Source: a virus. From it: 29,358 nt of DNA. A program made the position numbers and the translations under genes. The notes under the pieces were generated by a model. It searched no databases. It saw nothing but the letters and a program-made list of their open reading frames with translations, and was not told the DNA's origin. Positions 1-29,358 of this stretch are shown piece after piece. The DNA is taken from positions 1 to 29,358 of IMG/VR virus record IMGVR_UViG_3300029319_000334; one strand, written 5' to 3'. Position 1 is the stretch's first letter. The number at the start of each line of letters is the position of its first letter.

Positions 1-93
1 ACCGTGTCCCAATCTCAGCACGGTGGTCCCACGGGAATACTGGTGCCGCAAATTACCAAGCAATCTGGACTAACGGAGGGGGCCGTCCCCTGA
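1..93 (+). CDS. Possible C-terminal end of a gene cut by the window edge
   Basis: Frame 1 is open from the first base to a TGA at 91-93 and would encode about 30 residues ending in TEGAVP, without Cys or Trp. A second frame (frame 3) is also open, to about 216, so the coding frame is not certain. No start is visible because the window begins inside. No family recognised. Confidence 0.25.
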   Translation, partial: TVSQSQHGGPTGILVPQITKQSGLTEGAVP

Positions 94-178
94 ATACACG
101 GCGAGGTTGTAGGCTATCTTGCTTATACAAATTTTTAAAAAATGCCGGGCAAAAATTTCCAAACCTCCCAAACCGGGT
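94..178. other. Short AT-rich intergenic leader region
   Basis: Between the possible edge gene and the first promoter I see only an AT-rich tract near 128-142 and no convincing gene. The preceding GGGG...CCCC pairing (about 77-90) could form a small hairpin. Confidence 0.3.
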
Positions 179-214
179 GGTTGACAGATCTGCAATCCGT
201 GTTATTATTATAAT
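179..214 (+). promoter_or_regulatory. Sigma-70-type promoter P1, leaderless, first copy of a 32-bp repeat
   Basis: TTGACA at 181-186 and TATTAT at 203-208 are separated by 16 bp. The ATG at 215 lies 6 bp after the -10 box, the usual position of the transcription start, so the mRNA should begin at or next to the start codon. No Shine-Dalgarno site fits in the gap. Bases 179-210 are identical to 997-1028. Confidence 0.75.
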
Positions 215-496
215 ATGAACAACATAGACACAGAAAAATTAAAGACAGCCAGTTTCATCGCTGGACATCAAGAACTTTATCAATGTATAATCAATGGCGA
301 ACAGCACAGAAGCGACGAAATCAGAATGCGTATTTCTGTTTACCCGTGGGCACTGGATAATGCCAAGCAGTTCTGTCGTAGATTAAGATCACAGGCCAAT
401 CAATTTGGTTTGGTTGCAACCTGGTTCGACCAGGGACAACAGAGGCACATATCAATTCGTAAACCATCATATTCATACAAACCTCAAACTCAATGA
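215..496 (+). CDS. Hypothetical protein (93 aa), leaderless
   Basis: Small basic, mainly soluble protein of unknown function. It has no signal peptide or membrane segment. The C-terminal half (FCRRLRSQANQFGLVATWF, then a polar tail) is rich in Arg and Gln. The ATG start is set by promoter P1, whose -10 ends 6 bp upstream, and no ribosome binding site is present. It is the first of four genes in the left 3 kb with this promoter-start spacing, which suggests early expression (inference). I recognise no family. Confidence 0.75.
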   Translation: MNNIDTEKLKTASFIAGHQELYQCIINGEQHRSDEIRMRISVYPWALDNAKQFCRRLRSQANQFGLVATWFDQGQQRHISIRKPSYSYKPQTQ

Positions 497-558
497 ACCA
501 ACCTAACGCAAATTTTTATGCTGACGCAAAAAAACTTTAAAAACGCAAAGGAGCAACA

Positions 559-1002
559 ATGACACACAAGACAAAAAACGCAACTGAATTCTATAAACAA
601 TACGGTATGACGATGGCAGAGATGGGCAGACGAACGGGTGTGTCAAAAGAAGCGATCAGACTGAGATTCAAAAATGGAAAAAAAGTAGATGGACCAAATA
701 TGAAAGGGGCAGGAGCAGGAAGAAAAGCAAAAATTTATGAAGGCAAAACAATACAAGAATGGGCAAAAGAATTGAATGTTCCAATTGGGCAAATGTATCA
801 CAGAATTAGAGAGCACAATGATCCGCATTATCAACATCAACCTAGAAGAATAGAGGTTGAGGGCAAAACAATACAAGAATGGGCAAAAGAATTGAATGTT
901 CCAATTGGAAGGATATATTACAGAATTAGAGAGCACAACGATCCGCGGTTCAAAACACGGCATTTTGTATGGACTAAAAACCAGCATAAAAACGCAGGTT
1001 GA
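559..1002 (+). CDS. Helix-turn-helix protein with a tandemly duplicated 40-aa domain (147 aa)
   Basis: Residues about 16-36 (AEMGRRTGVSKEAIRLRF) have the form of a helix-turn-helix. Residues 61-100 and 101-140 are near-identical copies of a unit beginning EGKTIQEWAKELNVPIG and ending RIREHNDP, which also resembles a helix-turn-helix. The protein therefore probably carries three DNA-binding modules and acts as a regulator or DNA-binding protein (inference from motif shape). At the DNA level, 742-788 equals 862-908 exactly, with a 120-bp offset, so the duplication is recent or homogenised. AAAGGAG at about 548-554 gives a normal ribosome binding site, unlike the leaderless neighbours. The TGA stop lies inside the -35 box of the next promoter. 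Confidence 0.85.
   Translation: MTHKTKNATEFYKQYGMTMAEMGRRTGVSKEAIRLRFKNGKKVDGPNMKGAGAGRKAKIYEGKTIQEWAKELNVPIGQMYHRIREHNDPHYQHQPRRIEVEGKTIQEWAKELNVPIGRIYYRIREHNDPRFKTRHFVWTKNQHKNAG
739..978 (+). repeat. Two 120-bp tandem repeat units inside the HTH gene
   Basis: Units start at 739 and 859. Positions 742-788 and 862-908 are identical, as are 801-818 and 921-938, and the remainder diverges. The offset is exactly 120 bp, so the reading frame is kept. Confidence 0.9.
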
Positions 1003-1032
1003 CAGATCTGCAATCCGTGTTATTATTAACAT
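997..1032 (+). promoter_or_regulatory. Promoter P2, leaderless, second copy of the 32-bp repeat
   Basis: TTGACA 999-1004 and TATTAT 1021-1026 have a 16-bp spacer. The ATG at 1033 is 6 bp past the -10. The stop codon of the upstream gene (1000-1002) is embedded in the -35 hexamer. The 32 bp at 997-1028 repeat 179-210 exactly, including the spacer, so the spacer may also hold a shared operator (inference). Confidence 0.78.
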
Positions 1033-1590
1033 ATGAAACAAAAAGAAATGATCACAATCAGAGAATATTATAACAAGCACCAATTATATGCTGAACCTGG
1101 AACCCAGATTCTGAATCCATCCTATTATGAGATCAAATATGACCAATGGATTCCTTGGTTGCGGAACATCACCATTGATGAATTCAATAGGCCTGCTTTT
1201 GGCACAATACAGGTGGCAGGAAAAACACACAAACAGGATTTGATGTCAACATTGAAAAGGATACACCACAAGGCCATTGATCAAATCAATGACATCATAA
1301 GACAGAAACAGAAAAAGGAGAAACAAAGAACGGACATCGTGGATGGTAGGAAGGGTTATTATTGGAGAAAACGGAGATACAAAACCAAGCCTCTACATCA
1401 AGATTTAGAATATTTAAAATTGCTTGAAAAACTTTTAAAGGACAGCGAACAATGGGAGATCGTCTGTGATGAATATGATATGGTCATCGCTAAAAAATTA
1501 AAATGGAGACACCCGTATGCCAAGGATCTGCGAGCCAGATTGCTGTTGTTGAAAATACAAAACAGCGACAAACCACCCAGCATAGGTTGA
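1033..1590 (+). CDS. Hypothetical basic protein (185 aa), leaderless
   Basis: Function unknown. The middle (residues about 85-120) is very rich in Lys/Arg, including a KQKKEK and a YYWRKRR segment. It is followed by a predicted helical stretch (EYLKLLEKLLKDSEQW), and a second basic helix lies near the C-terminus. This composition suits nucleic-acid or ribosome contact, but no family is recognised. The start is fixed by promoter P2. The stop TGA (1588-1590) overlaps the -35 box of the next promoter. Confidence 0.75.
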   Translation: MKQKEMITIREYYNKHQLYAEPGTQILNPSYYEIKYDQWIPWLRNITIDEFNRPAFGTIQVAGKTHKQDLMSTLKRIHHKAIDQINDIIRQKQKKEKQRTDIVDGRKGYYWRKRRYKTKPLHQDLEYLKLLEKLLKDSEQWEIVCDEYDMVIAKKLKWRHPYAKDLRARLLLLKIQNSDKPPSIG

Positions 1591-1620
1591 CGGATCACAG
1601 AGATGTGCTACAATTAAGAT
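1587..1620 (+). promoter_or_regulatory. Promoter P3, leaderless
   Basis: TTGACG 1587-1592 and TACAAT 1609-1614 have a 16-bp spacer, and the ATG at 1621 is again exactly 6 bp after the -10. The upstream gene's TGA stop is inside the -35 box. Spacer sequence differs from P1 and P2, so the conserved element is geometry, not a simple duplication. Confidence 0.72.
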
Positions 1621-2079: not shown

Positions 2080-2086
2080 AAACCCA

Positions 2087-2130: not shown

Positions 2131-2784
2131 ATGAGGAAGAACGCAAAAACACCGGAGCAGAAGATCGAGGAGTTCTGGAGCAGGGTTGACACCACTGGAG
2201 AGTGTCATCTCTACACCGGATCCCTGGACGCACACGGTTATGGCAATTTTTGCAAAGGACCACCCCAACCGCTACAGGTCAAGGCACACCGATTCGCCTA
2301 TGAACTGCACACGGGCCGATCATATCCGCCCTGGAGGCCAGTAGGACATATCTGCGCCAACAGGCATTGTGTCAGGATCGAACACCTGAAATTGGGGCGG
2401 GAGAAACCCAAGGAGCATTTCCTCAACAGGCAGAGAGGACCAAGGCCGGAACTCTGGAAGCACGGACCATCGGAGGAATTGAAGGCCTTGAATATGGCGT
2501 TCCTGAGGGCCAGATGCCAGGCCAGATATCGGAAAGAGATCTGGCAGATGACCTTTGACGAATTCGTCGAGAGATGGGCGGGCAGGCACTCGGAGACAGG
2601 AATCAAGAGCACCTGCACCGTTATGGTGAGGACCGACCCAGAGGGTGTATGGAGCCTTGAAAACACTATGCTGACCAACAGGGGCAAAAATCAAGGCAGG
2701 ATGATGCGCCTCAAGAAAGAAAAAAACCTGCCCTGGACACACAGATTCAACCACAAGGAGCAAAATGAAACAGACACTGACTGA
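2131..2784 (+). CDS. HNH homing-type endonuclease (217 aa)
   Basis: Residues about 25-90 follow the HNH_3 pattern: a C-x-LYTGSLDAHGYGNF stretch, KAHRFAYELHTG, then GHICANRHCVRIEHL with the metal-binding His/Cys/Asn/His residues. Such enzymes nick or cut DNA and are common free-standing elements in phages. The second half (about 100-217) is basic, with an FDEFVERWAGRH segment and a Cys/Thr-rich linker that may serve in DNA recognition. GC content is visibly higher than in neighbouring genes, a sign of separate origin (inference). The ATG follows promoter P4, and the gene end overlaps the next start by 20 bp. Confidence 0.85.
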   Translation: MRKNAKTPEQKIEEFWSRVDTTGECHLYTGSLDAHGYGNFCKGPPQPLQVKAHRFAYELHTGRSYPPWRPVGHICANRHCVRIEHLKLGREKPKEHFLNRQRGPRPELWKHGPSEELKALNMAFLRARCQARYRKEIWQMTFDEFVERWAGRHSETGIKSTCTVMVRTDPEGVWSLENTMLTNRGKNQGRMMRLKKEKNLPWTHRFNHKEQNETDTD

Positions 2785-2953: not shown

Positions 2954-2963
2954 ATATTCAGAG

Positions 2964-8244: not shown

Positions 8245-8712
8245 ATGTCCGCAGCGTCAACGTTCTTGGAAAATGAACTTCTTGATCACGTATTAGGCGA
8301 AGGTGCAAGAAACTATACCCCACCTACTCTTTATGTTGCATTGTTTTCTGGCCCAGCGTCAGATGTATCAGCGGCATTGGAATCAGGCACAATGGCTAAT
8401 AGTGCAGGCAATTGGGGAAACTTCGAAATAAACACAGGTGGCTATGTGAGACAATCTATAAACTTTGCGGCGGCATCGAATGGACAAGCATCTTCAAATG
8501 TCACCATTAATTTTCCACAAGCAACAGCAAACTATGACAATCCGGCAGGTTCAGGGTCCACTGTAAGTTATGTGGCAATAATCGATCAAGTTGATGATGG
8601 ATCAACTACTGCAAACGTTCTCTTTTATGGTGCTTTAACAAACGCCAAAGAAATCCTACAAAACGATACATTATCAATACAATCTGGATCTTTAACTGTA
8701 AGTCTCGCATAA
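8245..8712 (+). CDS. Phage tail/fibre-associated structural protein (155 aa)
   Basis: The whole protein follows a pattern found in many phages of marine and proteobacterial hosts: N-terminal ASTFLENELLDHVLG, then YTPPTLYVALFSG, a GGYVRQSINFAAA strand, VTINFPQAT, a VSYVAIID strand and a closing LFYGALTNAKEI ... LTVSLA. It is usually annotated as a putative tail fibre or minor virion protein, and its precise role is not known to me. Strong ribosome binding site. It leads a block with its own CATAAATA motif. Confidence 0.75.
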   Translation: MSAASTFLENELLDHVLGEGARNYTPPTLYVALFSGPASDVSAALESGTMANSAGNWGNFEINTGGYVRQSINFAAASNGQASSNVTINFPQATANYDNPAGSGSTVSYVAIIDQVDDGSTTANVLFYGALTNAKEILQNDTLSIQSGSLTVSLA

Positions 8713-9621: not shown

Positions 9622-9969
9622 ATGGCAGACTTGACGGGTGCTAGATTCGATAATAAAGGATTACATTTTATCAAAGATCCGGATGCAAATTTAGTTTATG
9701 GTATTGATTGGACGAACTATCTCAACACAGGCGATACTATTTCAAACAAAGATGTGACAATCGAAACAATAACAGGAGATAGTGCACCTTTGGCATTTCC
9801 AACAAATGAATCCACAGACGTATCAGTCTCTGGAAACAAACAGGTCAATATTAGACTGAATGGTGGGACCGTTGGCAACGAATACAATGTTGATGTAAAG
9901 ATAATCACAGCAAACGGTGACACTGACTCAAGAAGATTTAGAATCATAGTCAAAAGGAAACATCTATAA
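9622..9969 (+). CDS. Putative fibre-tail adaptor protein (115 aa)
   Basis: Matches by pattern the small phage proteins annotated as fibre-tail adaptors: FIKDPDANLVYGIDWTNYL, GDTIS, then LNGGTVGNEYNVDVKIITAN and TDSRRFRIIVK, an immunoglobulin-like beta sandwich. Such proteins connect fibres to the tail. GAGGAG lies upstream of the ATG. The gene sits between fibre-type genes and the terminase genes, and its stop overlaps the next start (TAATG). Confidence 0.65.
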   Translation: MADLTGARFDNKGLHFIKDPDANLVYGIDWTNYLNTGDTISNKDVTIETITGDSAPLAFPTNESTDVSVSGNKQVNIRLNGGTVGNEYNVDVKIITANGDTDSRRFRIIVKRKHL

Positions 9970-10283: not shown

Positions 10284-11537
10284 ATGAAATTGTCAGAACC
10301 GCAGAAGCGGATTGCATACGATAAGAGTAGATTCAAAGTCTGGGTAGGCGGACGTAGGACAGGAAAAACAACCTTATCAATCAGAGAACTTTGTTACACA
10401 GCAAAAGAACCAAACAAAAATTGCATAGCAGTATTTCCATCTTATCGTCAAGCCAAGTCCGTTGCTTGGGTGATGTTGAAGGACATTGTCCACAAATTAA
10501 AATGGGTAAAAAGCATCAATGAAGCGGACCTCACGGTGGTTCTGAAAAACAATTCAAGAATAAGTTTGAGAGGTGCAGAAAATTCAGATGCACTACGTGG
10601 AATTTTTTGTGACATAATTTGTTGTGATGAAACGAGTGATATACCTGAAGAGGCTTGGTTTTCTGTTTTGAGGCCTACGCTATCTGACAGGAAAGGTCGT
10701 GCTTGTTTTTTTGGAACACCAAAAGGTCGTAATTGGTTTTTTGATCTATACCAAAAAGGACAAGATCCAACAGAAAAGGAATGGAGTTCATATCTCGTAA
10801 CAACAAAACAGGGCGGTTGGGTTGATGATGAAGAACTGGCACAAGCAAAGAAAGATTTGGACAGCCGAACGTTTCAACAGGAATATGAAGGCACGTTCCT
10901 CACCTGGGCAGGAGTGGTGTATTACGCAATGGATCTACAACACAATGTAAGGAGATTTGAATTACCAGATGACGTAACGGTGTTGCACATAGGACAAGAT
11001 TTCAATATTGATCCCTGTGTGGCTATTGTGTGTTTTATCAAAAACAATATCATCTATGTGTATGACGAGATACAAATATGGAGTTCAAACACAGACGAGA
11101 TATGCACAGAAATACATCACAGGTATCCAAACAAAAAAATATTTTCATATCCAGATCCATCAGCAAAGGCCAGACGTTCATCATCTGGTGGAAGGACGGA
11201 TATTTCAATTTTACAAAACAATGGCTTCGTGGTGAAGGCACCAAACAAGGCTATGCCAATCAGAGATAGGATCAATGCCGTCAATTCCAAATTGTGTTCA
11301 TCCGCAGGAATAAGAGGGATGATTATACATCCAAATTGTAAAAATCTATTAAATACACTTACAAAGCAGGTGTATAAAGAAGGCACATCAATACCTGACA
11401 AAAGCAGTGGACTTGATCATCACGGAGATGCTTTAGGTTATTTGGTGTCCTATTTGTATCCTGTTACAACAAATTATGAAGGACCTGAACAAAGCAGATT
11501 CACAGTAAGGACAAGGACAAACAATGGCAGAATTTAG
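10284..11537 (+). CDS. terL: Terminase large subunit, ATPase-nuclease (417 aa)
   Basis: Packages DNA into the prohead. Walker A GGRRTGKTT is at residues 22-30. Walker B IICCDE has Asp115 and Glu116. The coupling motif FFGTPKG is at 142-148. The nuclease domain has the acidic IGQDFNID (Asp239), VYDEIQ (Glu about 258) and DHHGDALGY (last Asp about 386). All ATPase and RNase H-type nuclease residues appear intact. Length is on the short side but complete. No clear Shine-Dalgarno site before the ATG. The last 14 bp overlap the portal gene. Confidence 0.95.
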   Translation: MKLSEPQKRIAYDKSRFKVWVGGRRTGKTTLSIRELCYTAKEPNKNCIAVFPSYRQAKSVAWVMLKDIVHKLKWVKSINEADLTVVLKNNSRISLRGAENSDALRGIFCDIICCDETSDIPEEAWFSVLRPTLSDRKGRACFFGTPKGRNWFFDLYQKGQDPTEKEWSSYLVTTKQGGWVDDEELAQAKKDLDSRTFQQEYEGTFLTWAGVVYYAMDLQHNVRRFELPDDVTVLHIGQDFNIDPCVAIVCFIKNNIIYVYDEIQIWSSNTDEICTEIHHRYPNKKIFSYPDPSAKARRSSSGGRTDISILQNNGFVVKAPNKAMPIRDRINAVNSKLCSSAGIRGMIIHPNCKNLLNTLTKQVYKEGTSIPDKSSGLDHHGDALGYLVSYLYPVTTNYEGPEQSRFTVRTRTNNGRI

Positions 11538-13080
11538 CACAGTCAACAGAGATCCAAATTTACCCAATTACGATTTTGGACTTCCAACACACCCAGAATA
11601 CAGGAACTATATCCGAAGATGGAAATTCCTTATTGAATCATATCTTGGTGGAGCAAACTACAGATCTTCACAATACCTCACAAGATACATCTACGAAAGT
11701 GAAAATGAATACCTACAGAGAATAGCACAGACTCCATTGGACAATCACGTGAAGAGCGTGGTGCACATTTTCAATTCATTCTTGTTTAGAAATGAACCAG
11801 AAAGAGATTATGGATCTATCGCAGGACCTGAATTAGAACAATTCCTTAAAGATTGTGATATGGACGGCAGGACTTGGGAATCATTTATGAGAGATGTAAA
11901 TATTATGGCCAGTGTGTATGGACATTGTGCGGTGCTTGTGGATAGACCAGAAACACAAGTTGGAACAAGAGCAGAAGAACTTCAACAAGGTATTAGACCT
12001 TATGTCACACTTTACACCCCAGAGAACATCATTGATTGGAACTGGAACAGACTTCCATCTGGACACTATGAATTAGAGTATGTAAAATTTTTAGAACCTG
12101 AAGAATTAGGCACATATGCCGCGGGTAGATATTACATAAGAACTTGGACAAAGGATATGATCCTTTTAGAAGAATACAATGACCAAACAAAAAACAAACC
12201 AATATTAGTAGAAGAAAAAATTAATCCATTAGGCAAGGTTCCTGTAACTTGGGTGTATGCAAATAGATCACCCATTAGAGGAATAGGTGCCTCGGATGTT
12301 GGTGATGTGGCGGATATGCAGAATGCAATCTATAATGAGTTGAGTGAAATAGAACAACTTATAAGAATATCCAACGCACCCTCACTTGTGAAAACAAGAG
12401 ACACAGACGCATCAGCAGGTGCAGGATCAATCATAACAATGCCAGAAAATTTAGATCCAGGACTTGCTCCGAGATTGCTCCAACCAAACGGACAGAACTT
12501 GGATGCAATATTGAAAACAATCGAAAGCAAAGTAAAAGCAATAGACAGAATGGCTCATATGGGGTCCATTAGGGCCATAGAGTCTCGCCAGATGTCCGGA
12601 ATTGCTATGCAATCAGAATTTATTTTGTTGGATGCAAAACTTTGTGAGAAAGCAAAAAATTTACAACTTGCTGAAGAACAGATTTGGAGAAACTGGGCAT
12701 TATGGCAAGGACAAGTATTCGACGGAGAAATAAATTATCCAATGGCGTTCCATATCAGAGACAAGAATCTAGATATGGACCTATTACAGAAGGCGGCCGC
12801 AACACAGAGAGATTCAGCGACTGCCACACCAGCCGTTAAAACAATGTTAGATGAGAGAGTAAAAGAATTACTTGCCATTGACGACGAAGAAATGGAAAAG
12901 ATAAAACAACCAGACACAACAGGAATGACACATCCACCAATGGCTAATCCTGCTGATATGGTGAAACATATGAGGGAAATGATTTCACAAAATTACACAG
13001 ACTCTCAAATTTTAGAATTACATCCTGAAATTAATCAATTCTTTGGAGCAGACAATGGCGAAGAGACGAGCAGTTCCTAA
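11524..13080 (+). CDS. Portal protein (518 aa)
   Basis: Placed directly after the large terminase and of typical portal length. The N-terminus has a helical clip/stem-like region (YIRRWKFLIESYLGG, YLQRIAQTPLDNHVKSVVHIFNSFLF). It continues with the portal-type segment ASVYGHCAVLVDRPE, the strand VTLYTPENIIDWNWNR, and SEIEQLIRISNAPSL before a long helical region. It resembles the DUF4055-type portals. It forms the dodecameric DNA channel at one capsid vertex. The start ATG lies in the terminase 3' end. Confidence 0.88.
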   Translation: MAEFSTVNRDPNLPNYDFGLPTHPEYRNYIRRWKFLIESYLGGANYRSSQYLTRYIYESENEYLQRIAQTPLDNHVKSVVHIFNSFLFRNEPERDYGSIAGPELEQFLKDCDMDGRTWESFMRDVNIMASVYGHCAVLVDRPETQVGTRAEELQQGIRPYVTLYTPENIIDWNWNRLPSGHYELEYVKFLEPEELGTYAAGRYYIRTWTKDMILLEEYNDQTKNKPILVEEKINPLGKVPVTWVYANRSPIRGIGASDVGDVADMQNAIYNELSEIEQLIRISNAPSLVKTRDTDASAGAGSIITMPENLDPGLAPRLLQPNGQNLDAILKTIESKVKAIDRMAHMGSIRAIESRQMSGIAMQSEFILLDAKLCEKAKNLQLAEEQIWRNWALWQGQVFDGEINYPMAFHIRDKNLDMDLLQKAAATQRDSATATPAVKTMLDERVKELLAIDDEEMEKIKQPDTTGMTHPPMANPADMVKHMREMISQNYTDSQILELHPEINQFFGADNGEETSSS

Positions 13081-15139: not shown

Positions 15140-15850
15140 ATGGAACAAACACAAACATCGCCAGACAATACACAACAGGTCACTGAGCCAGTTGCAGAAG
15201 TCTCAAAAAATACGACACCTCAGGGAACGGTTGAATCGACAACTGACAAAACATATTCTCAATTTGAAGTTGATGCTATTGCGGCTGAGATCCGTAGGAA
15301 AGCAGAGCAGAAGGTATCAAAGAAATTTGAGGGCGTGGATGTCGAGCATTACAGGTCTTTGATTGCCAAAGAAGAAAATGAAAAACTTCAGAAGCAAAAG
15401 GAGAAGGGTGAGTTTGAAACGATCTTGAAAGAGCAGGCTGAAAAGTCACAACAAAGGATCCAACAACTTACTGGTGAACTGACAAAGATAAAAGTGGATG
15501 GGGCATTGATTAATGCCGCGTCAACTATGAAAGCGATCAATCCTGATCAAGTTACACAACTTTTGAGGGACAGGATCAAGATGTCAGACACAGGAGAAGT
15601 TGAAGTTGTTGATCCGAGATCAGGTCAAGCAAGATACACTGAAAAAGGTGCGCCTATGTCGGTCCAAGATGCCGTTAAGGAATTCTTGAATTCCAATCCG
15701 CATTTCGTTGCCGGAGGCCCAGCAGGAGGTGGATCCCAATCCAACACAAGACAGAGTGGTGCTAATAATGTTGATGTGACCAAACTGGATATGAACAATC
15801 CAGAGCATAGAAAACAGTATGCTGAGTGGCGAAAGACACAAGGCTACTAA
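15140..15850 (+). CDS. Capsid scaffolding protein (236 aa)
   Basis: Lies directly before the major capsid gene. It has the usual scaffold build: a disordered Thr/Gln/Pro-rich N-terminus, a long charged coiled coil (residues about 50-125, with EKLQKQKEKGEFETILKEQA), a DPRSGQARY turn segment, a Gly-rich linker (GGPAGGGSQ) and a short C-terminal helix that would bind the capsid protein. It guides prohead assembly and leaves before DNA entry. An AAAGGAG site lies upstream of the ATG. No protease domain is visible. Confidence 0.82.
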   Translation: MEQTQTSPDNTQQVTEPVAEVSKNTTPQGTVESTTDKTYSQFEVDAIAAEIRRKAEQKVSKKFEGVDVEHYRSLIAKEENEKLQKQKEKGEFETILKEQAEKSQQRIQQLTGELTKIKVDGALINAASTMKAINPDQVTQLLRDRIKMSDTGEVEVVDPRSGQARYTEKGAPMSVQDAVKEFLNSNPHFVAGGPAGGGSQSNTRQSGANNVDVTKLDMNNPEHRKQYAEWRKTQGY

Positions 15851-15881: not shown

Positions 15882-16727
15882 ATGGCTAATGAAACTACAA
15901 CAACTACTTTGAATGATCTGATATCACCGATCGTTCAAGAGGCTATGTTTGTTGCAAGTGAAACTGCGATTATGCCAGGTCTTGTAAAACAATTTACAGT
16001 TCCAGCAAATGCAGGTAAGGTTCTTCAAGTTCCGATTTACTCAGCACAAACAATATCAAGTGACGTTGGTGAGAACAGTGATTTATCAAACACTCAAATC
16101 TCAACTGACAAAGCAGACATCACTTTAACTGAAGCAGGTATAATGACTACATTGACTGATATGGCGAGAAACCATTCAGTATCAAATGTTGTTGCTGACC
16201 TTGGTAAGTTATTTGGTGAAGCAATCGCAAAAAGACACGACAGAGCATTAACAGGTCTATTCTCATCTTTCTCATCTCAAATTGGTGAAGATTCAGATGA
16301 AGTAGAAGTTAAGGATCTATTCGAAGCATATGCGACGTTAAAAGCAAATGCAGTTCCTGGACCATACGTTGGTGTGTTCAATCCAAAAGCAATTTACAAT
16401 GTTAAAAAAGCATTGACAAACACTTTTGTGAATCCGAATGCGTCAAATGTTGCGAACCAGGCAATGACTGAAGGCTTCATCGGAAGAATCGCAGGTATCG
16501 ACATTTTTGAAACATCAAATGTTGTTGAACCTTCTTCAGGTGTGGCGATCAATGCTGTATTCAGCAGAGATGCTTTGGGTGTTGCGATAGCAGACCAATT
16601 AAAAATTGAAACACAAAGAGATGCTTCTTTAAGAGCAGATGAAATTGTTGCTTCTACAAGATACGGTGTATCTGTATTACACAATTCATATGGTGTTCAA
16701 TTAAAAGGTGATGCTACAATCAACTAA
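15882..16727 (+). CDS. Major capsid protein, HK97-like (281 aa)
   Basis: Position after the scaffold, length, very strong ribosome binding site and smooth composition mark it as the main coat protein. A helical N-terminus (LNDLISPIVQEAMFVASETA) is followed by an E-loop-like region (VLQVPIYSAQ), a long spine helix (VADLGKLFGEAIAKRHDRAL) and P-domain/A-loop strands (GVFNPKAIYNVKKAL, GFIGRIAGIDIFETSNV), ending with RYGVSVLHNSYGVQLKGD. This matches the HK97-fold capsid proteins of marine siphoviruses and podoviruses by pattern. A rho-independent terminator follows. Confidence 0.88.
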   Translation: MANETTTTTLNDLISPIVQEAMFVASETAIMPGLVKQFTVPANAGKVLQVPIYSAQTISSDVGENSDLSNTQISTDKADITLTEAGIMTTLTDMARNHSVSNVVADLGKLFGEAIAKRHDRALTGLFSSFSSQIGEDSDEVEVKDLFEAYATLKANAVPGPYVGVFNPKAIYNVKKALTNTFVNPNASNVANQAMTEGFIGRIAGIDIFETSNVVEPSSGVAINAVFSRDALGVAIADQLKIETQRDASLRADEIVASTRYGVSVLHNSYGVQLKGDATIN

Positions 16728-16800: not shown

Positions 16801-17355
16801 ATGACAATCATTTGGTTCAATGGTCCTTCGGGTGTCGAATTGATGGCGAGCCTGCCACGACAACCTTTTGAGATAGGTTGTAATCTCATACAAAACAACA
16901 GAGATGTGGATGTGGTCTGTGCCTATGACGTAGACACAGTGACTAAGATTGAAATCAAACCAAACACTGAATATTACACCAGAGAAGAAGCCGCACACAG
17001 CAAATGGAACATTATAAATGACCATATTATCAAATCAACAAACTCCGGCCTGTTGGCCTGTTATGTTGCCAAAATTAAAAAACAATTTCCAATCTACATA
17101 TTGGGTTGTGATTGGGGTCTCACAAAGATAAGCATATTTGAAAAAGAATATATGCACACAAAACCGCAAAGGAAGTATTGGCAGGCACATAAAAAATTTA
17201 TTTCAACATTGTTTGATGGTTTGCCTGTGTATGTGGTCAACGATCAACAACCAGATATCAATTTACCTATCATTTCCGTAAAGCAGTTCATATCTGCAAT
17301 TCAAATAAATAACAATAGCAGGAAGGACCTGCAACAAACAAGGAAGGACCTTTAA
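16801..17355 (+). CDS. Rossmann-like MptE/DUF115-type protein, paralogue A (184 aa)
   Basis: Key segments are IIWFNGPSG (4-11), EIGCNLI (about 24-30), VVCAYD (about 38-43), SGLLACYVAK (about 82-91) and YILGCDWG (about 99-106). Order and form (GPS, N, D, S-G-x-LA, GxD) match the DUF115/MptE-like and sialyltransferase-like Rossmann folds, which bind nucleotide-linked substrates. The actual reaction is unknown. A homologue lies on the other strand at 27567-28112. The C-terminus ends with a doubled RKDL (RKDLQQTRKDL), encoded by a duplicated AGGAAGGACCT, the second copy of which also serves as ribosome binding site of the next gene. Confidence 0.72.
   Translation: MTIIWFNGPSGVELMASLPRQPFEIGCNLIQNNRDVDVVCAYDVDTVTKIEIKPNTEYYTREEAAHSKWNIINDHIIKSTNSGLLACYVAKIKKQFPIYILGCDWGLTKISIFEKEYMHTKPQRKYWQAHKKFISTLFDGLPVYVVNDQQPDINLPIISVKQFISAIQINNNSRKDLQQTRKDL
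17304..17311 (+). promoter_or_regulatory. AATAAATAAC motif inside the 3' end of paralogue A
   Basis: AATAAATA followed by ACA, 44 bp before the next gene start. Same ten bases as at 3683 and 26433. Could drive the connector-tail block beginning at 17356. Confidence 0.4.
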
Positions 17356-19637: not shown

Positions 19638-19781
19638 ATGTTGGCCGATAGGCTCCACAAGAGCCTTGAGGAGATAATGCAGTTGTCAGTGTTGGAGATA
19701 GATCTGTGGTTGGGATACCTAAGGATCGAACAACAAGCCGCCAGCAGGCAAATGAAGAACTTGAAGGGTAGGAAAAAATGA
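19638..19781 (+). CDS. Second tail chaperone ORF (gpT/DUF4035-like, 47 aa or a frameshift extension)
   Basis: The -1 frame relative to the preceding gene is open from 19590 to the TGA at 19779-19781 and encodes LLLMLADRLHKSLEEIMQLS, then VLEIDLWLGYLRIEQQ. This matches the second chaperones of proteobacterial phages (LADRL-x-K-x-x-x-EI ... LWxAYxR). Read alone it starts at ATG 19638. Read as a gpG-gpT fusion it would need a -1 slip between 19590 and 19626, but I see no ideal slippery heptamer. The stop overlaps the tape measure start as ATGA. Confidence 0.7.
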   Translation: MLADRLHKSLEEIMQLSVLEIDLWLGYLRIEQQAASRQMKNLKGRKK

Positions 19782-21802
19782 GTCAACAAATTCTATTAGC
19801 GATCAAGGCACAGGATCGTGAAATTAAAAGACTCACTGGAGAGGTCAATAGATTAAAAGGATCAATAGGTGGTATTGGGCCTATAGCCAAAGTTGCGGCT
19901 GGAGCCTTGGGTGCCATTGGACTTGTTTCACTTGCCAAAAATGCTGTAAACACAGCGGCCAGATTTCAGGATCTACAAACAACTTTAGCATCAGTAACTG
20001 GATCAACCAAGGCAGGTGCAGAAGCATTTGAATTTATAAAAGAATTATCAACTTCAACCCAATTCGGCATTGAAGACCTTTCCAAAGCATTTATAAAATT
20101 AAAAGCGGCTGGCATCGAACCAAATGTTGAACTTCTTACAGTTTTCACAGACACAGCGGCCATAACCACAGACCAAGTCGGATCATTAGAGGCGGTAACA
20201 GACCTGTTTGCAAGAACGGTCCAAGGGGGTCTGGGTTTAGAAGAGATTGAACGATTAGGAGACAGAGGTGTTCCTGTTCTTGATATTCTTAATGAAAAGT
20301 TAGACCTTACAAGGGGTGAAATATCAGAGTTTGGTAAAAGCGCCGAAGGAGCCAAAAAACTTGTTGATGCTTTTGCGGAAGGTATCCAGGAACGATTTGG
20401 CGGAGCAACACAGAAATTATTAGGAAACCTATCAGTTCAATTTTCAAATTTGAACATAGCAATAGACAACGCCAGTTCGGCATTTGGAATGTCTCTGGCA
20501 CCAGCATTGGGTGAGTCTGTTGTAGGACTAACAGAATTTATCGTAAGGAATGAAAAATTAATAGCATCAATAGGTGAAGGTTTAGGAACAGCAATACAAT
20601 TCACTGTGGCAAACATTGATCTGCTCGCTTCTGCATTGGTTGGATTGGGACTTGCAGGAATCATTGTTTTATTTGGGAAATTGGCCCTGGCAATAAAAGG
20701 TGCCGCCCTGCAAATGAACATATTCAACAAGGTAGCAGGCAAGAATCCTTTTGTAAGACTTGCCACTGGTTTGTTAGCAGTAGGTAGTGCAGTAGCGACC
20801 TATGTTACACTGAACAAAGATGCAGAAGAAACACAGGATGATGTCAATGATGCAGTTGACGAGGGAACAAAATCTTACAAAAATTATGAAGATGGCATAA
20901 TACGAGCGGCCAAGGCTCAAAAGAAAGCGGAAGAGCAAGCCAAGAAGAATGCCAAAGCACAAAAAGATTTAGCAAAAGCACATAGAAAAACATTCGACGA
21001 AATAATGAAGTTGAATGAGACAGAATTACAAAAACTTGCGAGACAGCAAAATGAAAAAATGAAAGAAATCAAGGATATGCTTCGAAATAGAAGCGTGTCT
21101 GAAGAAGAGGCGGCAAAAGCAAGGCTTGAGATAGAAAAATTTTATGGTGGCAAGGCCAGAGACATCAGAAACAGAGAAGCACAAGAGGCATTAGAAAAAC
21201 AATTAGAAGCAAGTAGAAAGATTGAAGAGGACAGAAAAGAAAAACTTGAATTATTCAAGCAAGGCAAGTTCAAACAAGGTAGTATTGAAAGAGCAACACA
21301 AGAAGAGATGCTTGACATTGTTATTGCCACAGGATCAAGAACATTAGATATACTTGCAACACAAAACAAAAAATTCTTCCAATTACAGAAAGCAGTCAAG
21401 ATTGCATCTGCTATCCAGAACACATACGAAGGTGCTACCAAAGCCTTTGCACAGGGAGGTTTCCTTGGATTTGTGACATCAGCACTTGTCATTGCGGCAG
21501 GTTTGGCACAGGTTGCACAGATACGGGCACAAACCTATCCAGGTAGAAGAAGAGGTGGTCCTGTTATGGCTAACAGTCCATTCATTGTTGGAGAAGAAGG
21601 AGCAGAGTTATTTGTTCCACAATCATCAGGCACGGTCATTCCGAACGACAGGATGGGAACAGGTGCGGTAACAGTTAATTTTAACATAAGTGCAGTTGAT
21701 AGTTCAGACTTTGACGATCTATTGATGTCCAGACAGGACTTGATCGTCAGCGTCATAAACAGAGCATTAAGAGAAAGGGGGAGAGCGGCTATAACCGCGT
21801 AA
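19778..21802 (+). CDS. Tail tape measure protein (674 aa)
   Basis: Sets tail length. N-terminal helix and hydrophobic Gly/Ala stretch (about 25-60), then a TP901-type tape measure domain (FQDLQTTLASVTGSTKAGAE, FIKELSTSTQFGIEDLSKAF, SLEAVTDLFARTVQGG). Two hydrophobic segments follow (about 284-315 and 328-345) that may cross the membrane during DNA entry. Residues about 360-490 are a charged coiled coil. The end has YPGRRRGGPVMANSPFIVGE followed by EGAELFVPQSSGTVIPN, common at tape measure C-termini. The length suggests a tail of roughly 100 nm, from the known 1.5 angstrom per residue rule. Confidence 0.92.
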   Translation: MSQQILLAIKAQDREIKRLTGEVNRLKGSIGGIGPIAKVAAGALGAIGLVSLAKNAVNTAARFQDLQTTLASVTGSTKAGAEAFEFIKELSTSTQFGIEDLSKAFIKLKAAGIEPNVELLTVFTDTAAITTDQVGSLEAVTDLFARTVQGGLGLEEIERLGDRGVPVLDILNEKLDLTRGEISEFGKSAEGAKKLVDAFAEGIQERFGGATQKLLGNLSVQFSNLNIAIDNASSAFGMSLAPALGESVVGLTEFIVRNEKLIASIGEGLGTAIQFTVANIDLLASALVGLGLAGIIVLFGKLALAIKGAALQMNIFNKVAGKNPFVRLATGLLAVGSAVATYVTLNKDAEETQDDVNDAVDEGTKSYKNYEDGIIRAAKAQKKAEEQAKKNAKAQKDLAKAHRKTFDEIMKLNETELQKLARQQNEKMKEIKDMLRNRSVSEEEAAKARLEIEKFYGGKARDIRNREAQEALEKQLEASRKIEEDRKEKLELFKQGKFKQGSIERATQEEMLDIVIATGSRTLDILATQNKKFFQLQKAVKIASAIQNTYEGATKAFAQGGFLGFVTSALVIAAGLAQVAQIRAQTYPGRRRGGPVMANSPFIVGEEGAELFVPQSSGTVIPNDRMGTGAVTVNFNISAVDSSDFDDLLMSRQDLIVSVINRALRERGRAAITA

Positions 21803-23032: not shown

Positions 23033-23484
23033 TGTATGTGAGAAAACTTAACATAAAAGATTTCAATAAATTTTATGAATTGCTTTTGAAAGCATTCACA
23101 GAAAAAGGTTTCCTTGATACAACTTTTGACAGAGAAATGGTAAACATAGAAGCCAAAAGATGCATCGTGGCCGCTGATCATTATGTGATTGGTCTGTTCG
23201 TTGATGATGTGTTGCGAGGTTTCGCTATCCTTATGTTTGGACAGAACGTCTACAACAGAGATGAATATGTGCAGGTTGATATGATTCACACTGACATTGA
23301 CTACAGGCACGACATACATCTACAAACAATTTTTTCAAACATCAAACAAATTGCACTTGAACACAATGCCAAGAGGGTGATTTGCAATGATAATGCTTTG
23401 AGTTTGGACAAAGAGACCAAAAATGTGATCTGGTTAAAAAATTTATTCTTCCAGACTGACAAAGTTTGGGAAGCGGAGATATAA
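23032..23484 (+). CDS. GNAT-like acyltransferase in the tail-tip module (150 aa)
   Basis: I start at ATG 23032 (TAATG with the previous gene), not at 23017. The fold pattern is GNAT-like: an N-terminal strand-helix (VRKLNIKDFNKFYELLLKAF), CIVAADHYVIGLFVDDVLRG, FAILMFG, a strand YVQVDMIHTDIDYR at the motif A position, then a long helix and AKRVICND. The acetyl-CoA loop (Q/RxxGxG/A) is not well conserved (DYRHDIHLQTIF), so activity is uncertain. In many siphoviruses an NlpC/P60 peptidase occupies this place. Confidence 0.6.
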   Translation: MYVRKLNIKDFNKFYELLLKAFTEKGFLDTTFDREMVNIEAKRCIVAADHYVIGLFVDDVLRGFAILMFGQNVYNRDEYVQVDMIHTDIDYRHDIHLQTIFSNIKQIALEHNAKRVICNDNALSLDKETKNVIWLKNLFFQTDKVWEAEI

Positions 23485-25574
23485 TGGGACTTTTAAGAAG
23501 AATCAAGAGAGCGATAAAAAAAGTTGTCAGCGGTGTAGCCAAGGTTGCAAGTTTTTTGATTGGTCCAGTATCAACTCCATATCAAACCACGCAATCGATA
23601 TCACAGACCAGTGCGTCAACAGGTCCTGAAAGACTTGATGGAACTTTGGTCAATTTCCAAGGTGGATCTATTCCTGTGCCTGTGGTTTATGGTTTCAGGA
23701 AAATTGGTGGCACTCGTGTTTTCGTGTCAACGAATGGCACGGACAACAAATATCTTTTTGTTGCCATTGTTTTTGCAGAAGGACAATGTGTAGGATTGAG
23801 TGAGGATGGTGGCTTTGGTGAGGACCATAGATCTCCGCTCTACATAGATGATACCAACGTGCAACTGACAAGTTATTCACACGGTGTGGTGGCAGAACCA
23901 ACAAAAGGACCTTACAAGGACAGATTAAAAGTGCAATTCTTTGACGGCAGGGAAATACAAACAAGTGCCTCAACTAACAATGGTGTTTTTTCAAATCTCG
24001 ATGGTTCAGGTGGTGCTCCAGGTTGGACAGACAGGCACAAACTGGCAGGATTGTGTTATTATGCTATGAGATTCGAATGGAAAAAAATTACAACACAAGA
24101 AGATGCAAACAACAATCCATACAAAGGCATTCCACAGATCAAAGTGAGATTATCGGGCAAAATGATTTTTGACCCGTTGGAGATACAATCAAATCACGGA
24201 AGGGCGATGGATGGCACTGATCCGTTGAGGTCTACACAAAGGGCATCTTACTTGAGGGACATCTATCCACAAGGAATATCAAATAATGTTACATTCACAA
24301 ACAACTTTAGATCAAACGGAAGATATATGGGTGATGATCCTGTGGCAGTTTTACTGGATTATCTAAGAAACCCCGACTACGGTAAAGGCATAGATGATGA
24401 CAGGATAGATTTTGATAGTTTCAAAGATGTATGTCTCAAACTATCAAGAACAGACATCAGTAGATTGTTCACTTGTCCAGTCTACATTGACACCAGTCAA
24501 ACTATGATGAACAACGTGAAAATTATTTTGCAATCATTCCGAGGATTCCTGCCCTACGCAAATGGCAAATTCAAATGTGTAATGGAAGCACCGGAAGATC
24601 AAGGTTTGGTAGGGGGTGATGAACTTACCCGTTTCAGTGGCACAATGGCAAACATCGTGACAAAGAAAACATTCAATGATGACAACATCGTTGGTGGTAT
24701 AACAATTGAAAGACCTGACAAGGCATCAAGATATAATCGTGTGAGGATAACTTACACAGACGGTATAAAACACGGAGCAACTGCTGAAGCAATCTTTCCG
24801 CCGGACACAACAAGTGCAGACTATGACGGATTATTGTCAACAGACAATGGAGAAAAATTGGAAGGCAGTTTCACCATACCCTGGTGCACATCAGAAAATA
24901 GAGCAAAACTTTTTGCACAATTATTGTTGCGTAGATCAAGGAACAACAAGGTCATAACATTTGCAACGAATCTTTCAGCAAGTGATCTCATACCAACTGA
25001 TTTGATAACCATACAAAATGATGCTTTTGGAATCGATGGTCCTTTCAGGATCCAAGAAATGACAATCGGACAGGATGGACTGATTGTTATTACTGCCGTC
25101 CAGCACGAACCATCGATATATGTGCAGGATTTAAACGTGTTCACACAACAACAGACCGATCCTGTATTGAATCTACCAGATCCAAATCTTGTGCAACCAC
25201 CAAGTGGTCTCACTGCTGACAGCAGTCAGGCACAGGCATTGTCGGATGGCACAAGGCGGATAAAGATTTCATTCACGGCCAGTCCGGATCCTTTCTTGGA
25301 GGATCACCACATACAGATAAAGAAATCCAGTGAACCTTTCTTCACCACCATAGCACAGACAGAGGACACAGAAGTTTTCTATGGTCCTGTTGCGGTGGGC
25401 GACAAGTTCGACATAAGGGTATTCGCAAGGAACGAGATAGGAAGAAGCAGTGATAAAATTAAAATTACAGCACACACGATCGCGAACACATACACACCAG
25501 CCAGTGGAAGTGCGACAACGGTAACAGGTAATTCAGTGTCCGCCAGCATAGGGACAGCGGAGTTGGGAGCATAA
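23484..25574 (+). CDS. Tail tip / central fibre protein, J-like (696 aa)
   Basis: ATG at 23484 overlaps the previous stop (TAATG). The N-terminus is a basic amphipathic helix (LLRRIKRAIKKVVSGVAKVA). Then comes the conserved tail tip core GGSIPVPVVYGFRKIGG, followed by KYLFVAIVFAEGQCVG, VAVLLDYLRNPDYGKGID and a phage-tail_3-like region (MMNNVKIILQSFRGFLPYAN). The C-terminal 130 residues form a fibronectin type III domain (PPSGLTADS, FDIRVFARNEIGRSS). Host contact and tail closure are expected functions. The stop overlaps the next start (TAATG). Confidence 0.88.
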   Translation: MGLLRRIKRAIKKVVSGVAKVASFLIGPVSTPYQTTQSISQTSASTGPERLDGTLVNFQGGSIPVPVVYGFRKIGGTRVFVSTNGTDNKYLFVAIVFAEGQCVGLSEDGGFGEDHRSPLYIDDTNVQLTSYSHGVVAEPTKGPYKDRLKVQFFDGREIQTSASTNNGVFSNLDGSGGAPGWTDRHKLAGLCYYAMRFEWKKITTQEDANNNPYKGIPQIKVRLSGKMIFDPLEIQSNHGRAMDGTDPLRSTQRASYLRDIYPQGISNNVTFTNNFRSNGRYMGDDPVAVLLDYLRNPDYGKGIDDDRIDFDSFKDVCLKLSRTDISRLFTCPVYIDTSQTMMNNVKIILQSFRGFLPYANGKFKCVMEAPEDQGLVGGDELTRFSGTMANIVTKKTFNDDNIVGGITIERPDKASRYNRVRITYTDGIKHGATAEAIFPPDTTSADYDGLLSTDNGEKLEGSFTIPWCTSENRAKLFAQLLLRRSRNNKVITFATNLSASDLIPTDLITIQNDAFGIDGPFRIQEMTIGQDGLIVITAVQHEPSIYVQDLNVFTQQQTDPVLNLPDPNLVQPPSGLTADSSQAQALSDGTRRIKISFTASPDPFLEDHHIQIKKSSEPFFTTIAQTEDTEVFYGPVAVGDKFDIRVFARNEIGRSSDKIKITAHTIANTYTPASGSATTVTGNSVSASIGTAELGA

Positions 25575-27508: not shown

Positions 27509-27529
27509 AATCTGATCTGCCAATCTACA

Positions 27530-27563
27530 TAAAGAAAACACAAACAGGCGACAGCCTGTTTGT
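27530..27563 (-). terminator. Rho-independent terminator of the minus-strand genes
   Basis: ACAAACAGGC (27540-27549) and GCCTGTTTGT (27554-27563) form a perfect 10-bp stem with a 4-nt loop. On the minus strand it is followed by TGTTTTCTTT. It begins 4 bp after the stop of the minus-strand gene. Confidence 0.82.
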
Positions 27564-27566
27564 AGA

Positions 27567-28112
27567 CTAACGAAGTTGGTCTTGATACCACTCCCGGAAT
27601 TGGGCCACGGTGATGTGCGGCACTGACACGTCCCTGGTCTCATCCGCCACCACGTGTATGTCCAGTCGTTGGGCGTAATGTTCCATCAATCTCTTCTGTG
27701 AGTTGGTGTGTTTGTGTGGCGAACGTCCACAGCCGTAGTCATAGATGGTCTTGGTGTTGATGCCCCAGTCACAACCCAGTATCCACAACCTCCCAAAACC
27801 CAAATGGTCAGCCAGTGCCACCGCCAGTGTGCCACTCTGTTCCGGCCTGCGATACGTGGGCATCCTGACCTCCCGCCATCCCCTGGGCCAATCCGTGAAG
27901 CCAGCGGACCTGGTGCTCCATCTCTCCACACCCTCCGTCGCGGGCACCGTGTTGACCACCCGTGCGTCATAGGCCACCACGTGATCCACCCGACGATCCT
28001 GCAGGATGTAGTTGCAACCTATCTCCGTGAACCTTCGTGGCAGGTCCAACAGGCTGTTCCTGCTGGGACCATTGAACCATATGATGCAGTTATCTTGATC
28101 CGGCACCCGCAC
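27567..28112 (-). CDS. Rossmann-like MptE/DUF115-type protein, paralogue B (181 aa)
   Basis: Has the same segment order as paralogue A at 16801: IIWFNGPSR, EIGCNYI, VVAYDARVV, SGTLAVALADHLG and WILGCDWGINTK, with a similar C-terminal HITVAQF. The insert between AYD and SG is longer and basic. The GPS/N/D/GxD pattern fits nucleotide-sugar or pterin-type Rossmann enzymes of the DUF115/MptE group; the substrate is unknown. GTG start at 28112, with a second GTG at 28106. GC content is far above that of paralogue A (G/C at most third positions), so it did not arise by a recent local duplication. A good terminator follows, and the gene overlaps the upstream one by 23 bp. Confidence 0.78.
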   Translation of the reverse strand: MRVPDQDNCIIWFNGPSRNSLLDLPRRFTEIGCNYILQDRRVDHVVAYDARVVNTVPATEGVERWSTRSAGFTDWPRGWREVRMPTYRRPEQSGTLAVALADHLGFGRLWILGCDWGINTKTIYDYGCGRSPHKHTNSQKRLMEHYAQRLDIHVVADETRDVSVPHITVAQFREWYQDQLR

Positions 28113-28308
28113 CTATCTGGCGACCACCCTCCGGCGTCAACCTCCACACTCGCCTATCCCGATTGCCTCGCAACCGGAACGGACAACTGCGATAGCCTGG
28201 CTGGCAGGGGCAGGTGCTATGGACACCCCGCATTGATCGTGTCCGCTCGTTGCGGCACAGCCATTCGCCGAACCTGCCCACCACTCTGTCAAACCTCGTT
28301 GCTTTCAT
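28090..28308 (-). CDS. Small Arg/Cys-rich protein (72 aa)
   Basis: I choose the ATG at 28308 because it follows a divergent intergenic region. The longer reading from 28416 would run over the start of the plus-strand gene. Contains RFGEWLCRNERT, a Cys cluster (STCPCQPGYRSCPF) and RRVWRLTPEGGRQ, the last like a winged-helix or zinc-ribbon end. Four or five Cys could bind a metal (inference). GC-rich like its operon partner paralogue B, with which it overlaps. Confidence 0.5.
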   Translation of the reverse strand: MKATRFDRVVGRFGEWLCRNERTRSMRGVHSTCPCQPGYRSCPFRLRGNRDRRVWRLTPEGGRQIGAGAGSR

Positions 28309-28338
28309 ACGCAGATATTTAATGTTTGGTAAAACACC

Positions 28339-28352
28339 CCGGACATTTCCGG
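28339..28352. promoter_or_regulatory. Palindrome in a divergent intergenic region (possible operator)
   Basis: CCGGACATTTCCGG has perfect 5-bp arms around CATT and lies between the minus-strand start at 28308 and the plus-strand start at 28368. AATAAATA at 28355-28362 is 5 bp before the plus-strand ATG. A regulator could control both directions here. Confidence 0.4.
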
Positions 28353-28367
28353 CCAATAAATATCCAT

Positions 28368-28610
28368 ATGCAGTTTGACCGAGGCAACACCATATTTGAT
28401 CTACAGGCCACAACATTCTATGACCGATACGAATTGTTTGACAAGATCAGAGATTCACACAAACCCCGATACAGCACCGTCAAGATCCTACAGCGATACC
28501 AACAGGCGGGCTTGATACCCTCGGGCAGAGACATAATGTATGAGATGTGGGAACAGGAAGACATATCAAGCACACACCACGAAGGCCCTGGGGATGAAGA
28601 AAAACTTTAG
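28368..28610 (+). CDS. Small hypothetical protein (80 aa)
   Basis: ATG at 28368, not 28326, because AATAAATA sits just upstream and the longer version would cover the palindrome. Helical with many charged residues (FYDRYELFDKIRDSHKPRYS, TVKILQRYQQAGLIPSGRD) and an acidic C-terminal tail (about 65-80). No ribosome binding site is visible. Family not recognised. Confidence 0.55.
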   Translation: MQFDRGNTIFDLQATTFYDRYELFDKIRDSHKPRYSTVKILQRYQQAGLIPSGRDIMYEMWEQEDISSTHHEGPGDEEKL

Positions 28611-28810: not shown

Positions 28811-28836
28811 CTACGCGGCGCGAGCCGATTGCGTAG
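28811..28836. repeat. 6-bp inverted repeat, possible hairpin or binding site
   Basis: CTACGC and GCGTAG flank 14 GC-rich bases. No T tract follows, so a terminator is unlikely. A protein-binding site or the junction of a past insertion is possible. Confidence 0.35.
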
Positions 28837-28870
28837 ATCAATTCTGGTATTACCATTAACATAGCGGATA

Positions 28871-28899
28871 TTGACACGATCCCGATTACGTGCTATAAT
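28871..28899 (+). promoter_or_regulatory. Full-consensus sigma-70 promoter
   Basis: TTGACA 28871-28876 and TATAAT 28894-28899 with a 17-bp spacer: both hexamers and the spacer are ideal. An ATG at 28905 lies at the start-site position, but the ATG at 28943 with an AGGAGG site is the better gene start. Confidence 0.9.
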
Positions 28900-28942
28900 G
28901 AACTATGTTCAATTTAATTAAACACGGAAAGGAGGATACAGT

Positions 28943-29125
28943 ATGCAAGAAGAACTTCAGAACATCGCTGACGCAATTGATAACTTTGAAGCAATGGGCA
29001 CAGATGACATCTACGGTCTCACAGCAAATGGAAACCTTGGACAGATCGCTTACAATCTCAATGCTATCAAAGAAGAACTTGAGAACATCAGCGGCATACT
29101 GACGGCTAATATGAAGAACAAATAA
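28943..29125 (+). CDS. Small acidic helical protein (60 aa)
   Basis: AGGAGG at 28930-28935 stands before the ATG, and the consensus promoter at 28871 drives it, so high early expression is likely. The sequence has two similar halves: EELQNIADAIDNFEAM and, after a GLTANGNLGQIAYNLN turn, KEELENISGILTAN. A helical pair or dimeric coiled coil is expected. No family recognised. Such small acidic early proteins often bind host proteins, which is only an inference here. Confidence 0.75.
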   Translation: MQEELQNIADAIDNFEAMGTDDIYGLTANGNLGQIAYNLNAIKEELENISGILTANMKNK

Positions 29126-29136
29126 GAGCCAACAGA

Positions 29137-29170
29137 GCAGGAAATCAGAAACAGATTCCTGCTGACTTTA
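29137..29170 (+). terminator. Probable terminator
   Basis: GCAGGAAATC (29137-29146) pairs with GATTCCTGC (29154-29162) with one bulged base, and TGACTTTATCC follows. It is a weak but well placed hairpin just after the 60-aa gene. Confidence 0.5.
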
Positions 29171-29241
29171 TCCTACATTACCCACCAAACGAAAGCATCA
29201 TATGACACACAAGACACTATCAAAGAGTAGCATAAGTGTGG

Positions 29242-29358
29242 CTATGTATGGGGTTTGGCTCTCCTTGTGTCACCCATCCCGATTACCACAACATCCAGTC
29301 TATCCTGATCATACGCACCCGATGAACCAGAATGCCCCACCATTTGCCAGACGATCGC
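29242..29358 (-). CDS. Possible C-terminal end of a minus-strand gene, cut by the window edge
   Basis: The minus frame from the edge to a TAG at 29242-29244 reads AIVWQMVGHSGSSGAYDQDR, then LDVVVIGMGDTRRAKPHT. Its composition is more protein-like than the plus-strand reading from ATG 29202, which is full of His and Pro. The end piece is GC-rich, as in the minus-strand genes at 27.6-28.3 kb. No family recognised. Confidence 0.3.
   Translation of the reverse strand, partial: AIVWQMVGHSGSSGAYDQDRLDVVVIGMGDTRRAKPHT

Follow-up and report, generated by a model that had tools for sequence, protein, structure and literature searches.

The phage record analysed here, which is the whole 29,358-bp IMG/VR virus record (the window), contains no copy of CATG, AGCT or GTAC on either strand, and it retains only three CTAG sites and one GCWGC site. 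Its relatives have lost restriction-type words in the same way, in sets that differ from one to the next. The best explanation, and a very probable one, is that several Type II restriction systems of the hosts, which vary from host to host, have exerted purifying selection on the phage; both the enzymes and the host are putative. Site elimination itself is already known, and accounts of it usually concern a single site or a few in any one phage; what is new is that it affects many motifs, in combinations that change rapidly across an aquatic phage lineage.

The absence of the three palindromes had been claimed in a first-pass annotation made from the sequence alone, and the direct count over the whole record bears this out, with no sign of the ordinary numbers that had been named beforehand as the contrary outcome. 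At the record's GC content of 41.6%, a zero-order (composition) expectation is approximately 104 copies of each, in agreement with the annotation's estimate of about 100, while a maximal-order Markov model expects 117 CATG, 44 AGCT and 47 GTAC. The three are the most depleted of all 256 tetramers, followed by CTAG (3 present against 40 expected), which had been described as rare but present on the basis of two of its three positions. GCWGC occurs once against 29 expected. An unbiased scan of all 4–6-mers in the record found strong depletion only for AGCT, CATG, CTAG, GTAC and GCAGC/GCTGC, the last pair being GCWGC. By the definitions of PMC6286503, these five words are eliminated (observed/expected <0.1, expected >15) and each is a complete recognition site of Type II-like form, that is palindromic and possibly degenerate.

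Other words of similar type are present. GATC (159 copies) and TGCA (132) are abundant, AATT, GGCC and TTAA are also ordinary, and CCGG, CGCG, TCGA and ACGT occur along with GGCC, all consistent with the annotation where it listed them. GCGC, which it likewise listed as occurring, is found in 8 copies but is itself depleted (approximately 30 expected). We note that TATA and ACGT are mildly low in the record.

The elimination is independent of composition and of amino-acid sequence. We shuffled the codons of the record's 24 kb of coding sequence 300 times, keeping the proteins and the codon usage. The shuffles gave 52±5 CATG (minimum 38), 63±7 AGCT (minimum 47) and 69±6 GTAC (minimum 53), against an observed count of zero in each case. 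They gave 40±5 CTAG (observed 3) and 29±4 GCWGC (observed 1), while TGCA and GGCC match the shuffled expectation. CATG, AGCT and GTAC are also missing from the non-coding stretches and from the GC-rich right end. The window being the entire record, the description of the absence as genome-wide holds for what is assembled. The annotation had added that the absence extends to GC-rich minus-strand genes; the right end does lack the words, but it holds essentially one recognisable minus-strand gene, the second copy of gene X (Table 1).

Table 1. Residual sites and genes in the 29,358-bp record.
Feature	Position	Strand	Basis or remark
Helix-turn-helix repeat protein	559..1002	+	weak HNH-family PHROG match
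Residual CTAG site 1 of 3	842..845		direct count
HNH endonuclease-like protein	2131..2784	+	HNH_3 1e-7; PHROG 5e-17
Sole GCWGC site	8251..8255		direct count
Residual CTAG site 2 of 3	9641..9644		direct count
Terminase large subunit	10284..11537	+	PHROG terminase 8e-44; 46-48% to DSL-LC06 and HTVC111P
Portal protein	11524..13080	+	PHROG 1e-63
Residual CTAG site 3 of 3	12769..12772		direct count
Head scaffolding protein	15140..15850	+	PHROG 7e-17
Major capsid protein	15882..16727	+	PHROG 1e-17; 48.6% to HTVC111P; 94% to L006
Gene X, conserved, after capsid gene	16801..17355	+	Rossmann-like fold (predicted)
Tape measure protein	19778..21802	+	PHROG 8e-19
J-like central tail fibre protein	23466..25574	+	PHROG 1e-38
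Diverged second copy of gene X	27567..28112	-	within GC-rich (0.55) stretch

The record is a tailed-phage genome, with terminase, portal, scaffold, capsid, tape measure and J-like tail genes in order, and is probably near-complete, judging from its likeness to the circular 29.8-kb phage DSL-LC06. The closest named relatives are the Pelagibacter phages HTVC111P, 112P, 202P and 026P together with the lake phage DSL-LC06, at 44–49% in terminase and capsid, and the record has the terminase, portal, scaffold, capsid and tail homologues of the HTVC111P-like phages, arranged in their order. The families listed for its 43 ORFs include no polymerase or integrase, and no replication genes were recognisable; with structural genes present and no integrase in that list, the record groups with non-temperate dsDNA phages. 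None of the 43 ORFs matched a methyltransferase family, and no restriction–modification system, in the sense of a methyltransferase with its cognate endonuclease, is recognisable in the record. Restriction-enzyme families were likewise not found in the ORFs beyond the HNH match. The HNH-like protein is the record's one plausible sequence-specific nuclease; its C-terminal domain is common to relatives with differing sets of missing sites. Searching solved structures with the sequence of this protein yielded no useful match, and its structure model was poor. The predicted fold of gene X is weakly like those of thiamin pyrophosphokinase and sialyltransferase, and is not a nuclease fold.

We gathered 85 contigs by capsid and terminase searches, with the major capsid protein of the record as the query for relatives and the basis of the tree. 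A word was scored as eliminated when observed/expected was <0.1, with Poisson p <0.001 and an expectation of at least 8. On this fixed rule, 93 contigs display 49 different eliminated sets, bearing in mind that short contigs have less power and that some of the 49 are truncated versions of others. The word counts show that nearly every relative lacks some restriction-type words, each in a differing combination, the words lost being CATG, AGCT, GTAC, CTAG, GCGC, TGCA, ACGT, YCGR, GCWGC, GTNAC or CTNAG; up to seven motifs are missing (contigs G003, L072 and L111). Several motifs show near-absent versus present states across the 93 contigs, and in the longer contigs an unbiased scan of all 4–6-mers finds almost only restriction-type words depleted. 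Degenerate motifs vanish as wholes: TCGA, CCGG and CCGA/TCGG disappear together as YCGR, and the same is true of GTNAC (G008) and CTNAG (G003). GCWGC is absent from nearly the whole clade. In contrast, GATC, GGCC, CGCG, AATT, TTAA, ATAT, TATA and GANTC are eliminated in none of the 93. In a comparison covering approximately 130 contigs of at least 9 kb, the mean number of eliminated palindromic 4-mers per contig is 3.1 in the record's clade; wild HTVC112P-like phages average 0.97, and other terminase relatives, found in bacterial genomes, 0.45. Counting 4-mers in related phages, as had been proposed alongside the annotation's claim, thus reveals a trait common to the whole lineage, but one in which the sets differ and turn over rapidly.

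The difference is already seen at close range. In L001 and L006, both near relatives of the record, AGCT and GTAC are missing as they are in the record, and so is ACGT, which the record has; both contain CATG and CTAG. At aligned positions the record keeps none of the CATG sites of L006 (0/9), L001 (0/18), G005 (0/28) or L027 (0/25), while it keeps GATC sites at 14/21, 15/32, 18/61 and 20/37, respectively. Compared with L006, its nearest relative, all seven evaluable CATG losses are synonymous; in more diverged pairs synonymous losses are mixed with other changes. The fewest state changes that the capsid tree allows are 11 for CATG, 13 each for GTAC and YCGR, and 8 each for CTAG and AGCT. The motifs are of restriction type, their loss is lineage-specific at aligned sites, and it has turned over repeatedly on the tree. 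The exact zeros, the loss of whole degenerate motifs, the differing sets of near relatives and the repeated turnover together point to sequence-specific cutting.

The missing words are the sites of common Type II enzymes. The annotation had read three losses as an answer to Type II restriction; selection is indeed the best explanation, but the record has five losses and not three, and the enzymes stay inferred. A phage infecting hosts with several Type II systems would survive by having no recognition sites (“no site, no cut”). CATG, AGCT and GTAC would all have been removed in this way, and CTAG and GCWGC almost entirely, in coding DNA largely via synonymous changes, while relatives in other hosts would have shed different sites and recovered these through drift. 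The selecting agents would be host enzymes of NlaIII-, AluI-, RsaI-, MaeI/BfaI- and TseI-like specificity, with the host presumably changing over evolutionary time. In this lineage several sites are purged together and the set changes from one near relative to the next, so that the missing words in metagenomic contigs alone could show which restriction specificities select on a phage. The defence repertoires of uncultured hosts, their exchange by the phages and the speed of the restriction arms race could then be tested from sequence.

It could be asked whether part of this selection came from methylation-dependent (Type IV or IIM) or base-excision enzymes and not from ordinary Type II enzymes, which we regard as very unlikely. 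GTAC-specific restriction glycosylases are enzymes of the PabI type. Restriction glycosylases are described in PMC10273834, and in PMC6286503 YCGR is classed with the Type IV sites and GCWGC with those of Type IIM. The match of YCGR to a methylation-dependent site counts against ordinary Type II restriction, though it would need methylated phage DNA, and no DNA methyltransferase that would make the phage a target was found among the record's 43 ORFs. Furthermore, Type IV sites are reported to be only weakly avoided, and orthodox Type II sites strongly (PMC6286503).

We attach a slightly lower, and very small, probability to the idea that one or more phage-encoded nucleases, such as the HNH-like protein, cut host or competitor DNA, the phage protecting itself by lack of sites and not by methylation. 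Genes for HNH or related endonucleases do occur in several genomes of the family (the record, L005, G004, G007, G009, G012, G013 and DSL-LC06), and the near-universal loss of GCWGC in the clade leaves room for a shared phage-side cause at that site. Nevertheless, one plausible nuclease gene faces five missing motifs in the record and seven in G003, L072 and L111, and the endonuclease homologues of G004 and G009 are similar, yet the missing sets of their genomes differ. Gene X has a tree that tracks the GTAC/YCGR state described below, but its predicted fold is not that of a nuclease, and other structural genes track the state too. We rejected the HNH-like protein as the cause, there being too few genes for the motifs and no motif common to all carriers. 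A phage nuclease could explain one or two motifs at most, with GCWGC the candidate.

It is extremely improbable that the words were removed by a general avoidance of palindromes, by codon bias or by a mutation bias such as methylation with subsequent deamination: many phages mildly avoid palindromes, and TATA and ACGT are mildly low here, but each missing word still occurs dozens of times after codon shuffling, GATC, TGCA, AATT, GGCC and TTAA are ordinary, the sets of close relatives differ, and mutation bias does not produce counts of exactly zero. The chance that reads bearing the sites were lost in library preparation or assembly is negligible, even though all the sequences except the isolates are metagenome assemblies, because a single dataset (3300030376) yielded both L001, lacking ACGT, AGCT and GTAC, and L067, lacking AGCT, CATG, CTAG and TCGA, and because contiguous assemblies of 20–32 kb exist and aligned homologous sites are changed, not missing.

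Phage-borne or virus-borne restriction systems, such as those of chlorella viruses, have known specificities that overlap the missing words; these viruses encode methyltransferases and protect their existing sites, whereas the record has no methyltransferase that we could find in its 43 ORFs. The loss of sites is an established answer of phages to orthodox Type II systems: Rusinov et al. (2018; PMC6286503) found elimination almost only at orthodox Type II sites of dsDNA phages, with avoidance much stronger and elimination more frequent in non-temperate phages, and approximately 7% of (phage, Type II site) pairs eliminated. The record resembles those phages in its near-zero observed/expected ratios at Type II-type sites, and differs in that a single genome of 29 kb has lost five motifs wholly or almost wholly and its relatives up to seven, in sets that change between near relatives.

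The SAR11 phages HTVC111P, HTVC112P, HTVC202P and HTVC026P are like the record in the order of their head and tail genes and in genome size, and are 45–47% identical to it in terminase and 47–49% in capsid. These four isolates form a sister clade and, unlike the record's clade, keep CATG, AGCT, GTAC, CTAG and YCGR; they also have more early genes and a lower GC content (approximately 31%, against 0.36–0.51 in the relatives of the record). Some wild relatives of the isolates lack GATC, GGCC, CTNAG or GAWTC, although for some GC-rich 5-mers these AT-rich contigs bring the test close to its limit. Our literature search found no paper on site avoidance in Pelagibacter phages. DSL-LC06, a circular phage from a lake metagenome (PMC10611076), has a layout and size similar to those of the record, no annotated replication genes, an HNH or “PacI-like” gene and a terminase 47.5% identical. 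It differs in that, of the words tested, it has eliminated just one, the non-palindromic AGCC/GGCT; this is one exception, outside the record's clade, to the palindromic Type II-like form of the motifs.

None of 84,980 genomes searched for the host held a capsid relative. A terminase relative, L213, is a 27.96-kb phage-like contig in a Porticoccaceae metagenome-assembled genome (MAG), and has no AGCT (85 expected), GTAC (67) or GCWGC (29), and 2 TGCA against 133. The same MAG contains an unrelated T4-like phage contig (L301), and the binning of L213 is therefore weak host evidence. Matches of the record's DNA in genomes of this candidate family are short and weak, and we regard the link to Porticoccaceae as weak. 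Word counts are ordinary in chromosomal pieces of the L213 MAG, and in all in three pieces from two MAGs of this weakly linked family; in a proven host, equal depletion would point to general sequence bias. By our reading of the ORFs of L300, in the L213 MAG, a C5 methyltransferase gene lies beside guaA with a putative endonuclease as its neighbour. C5 methyltransferases occur in 18 of the 112 candidate-family genomes. Searches of the 112 for NlaIII-type (PF05315) and PabI-type (PF09522) enzymes were empty, but controls were equally silent, and this is no proof of absence.

Within the record's clade, the losses of GTAC and YCGR exclude one another: 38 contigs have lost only GTAC, 38 only YCGR, and none both (Fisher p ~1e-13). 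Independent pairs on the tree show 0 changes in the same direction and approximately 7 in opposite directions (median p 0.016). Simple restriction pressure would not predict so strict an exclusion unless the hosts were structured. The exclusion is not biochemical, because several contigs of the DSL-LC06-like clade (L198, L200, L203 and L204) lack both. Several structural-gene trees fit the YCGR state more closely than the capsid tree, a pattern that a division of the phages into two gene pools would produce; we infer that these correspond to two host groups. Tentatively, it may be possible to read from the missing words which restriction systems uncultured aquatic bacteria possess, with the exclusion reflecting two alternative types of host defence between which the phages have switched many times; the two types would belong either to separate host lineages or to restriction systems that alternate at a single chromosomal locus. 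The exclusion provides a concrete prediction about host populations. Gene X was considered as the determinant of the GTAC/YCGR state and rejected: its tree does follow the state better than the capsid tree, but so do those of g17356, g17824 and g18943, and its predicted fold is Rossmann-like. That all four trees follow the state points to recombination within gene pools.

Elimination of GTAC and of YCGR (TCGA, CCGG and CCGA/TCGG, which are lost together) showed zero overlap among 76 contigs of the window clade, and a further 15 contigs of this clade had eliminated neither. Of the 91 testable contigs of the clade (L001-L113), 90 have at least as many GATC sites as expected, and this word is therefore spared or favoured lineage-wide. 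GTNAC and CATG are wholly lost, with GTAC itself retained, in contig L055 and contig group G008 (L095 and L096).

The GC-rich island of the window, which holds a second copy of gene X, the conserved gene at 16801-17355, 3' of the capsid gene, looks imported; the nearest relative of this copy is the one in L090. Despite this appearance, CATG, AGCT, GTAC, CTAG and GCWGC are all missing from the island too. At the left end (1-3700), several small unique ORFs with no database matches adjoin the HNH gene, and the whole window contains no recognisable replication genes.

Features of the window and of the candidate-host MAG
Feature	Position	Strand	Remark
Small ORFs	215-496, 1033-1590, 3050-3496		unique
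HNH gene	2131-2784	+	HNH endonuclease-like
GC-rich island	~27480-28430		GC 0.55
Second gene X copy	27567-28112	-	diverged; inside island
C5 methyltransferase gene	L299:1131-2225		broken by stop or frame break

The methyltransferase gene belongs to the Porticoccaceae MAG, a candidate host, that contains the phage-like contig L213. The MAG also includes a T4-like phage contig, L301 (G021:C28), with UvsX-like, helicase-like and DNA polymerase genes, and host calls from this bin therefore call for caution.

Outside the clade, the non-palindromic AGCC/GGCT is absent from the whole record of the lake phage DSL-LC06 (0 against 68 expected), unlike AGCT and GGCC, which are ordinary there; it is also missing in L198, L203 and L204. 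The missing-word spectrum of the SAR11-type relatives (HTVC112P-like wild contigs, L117-L196) differs from that of the window clade: the words missing from some of these contigs are GATC (10/80), GGCC (13/29), GAWTC (7/76) and parts of CTNAG, and CATG is missing in only 2 of 80.
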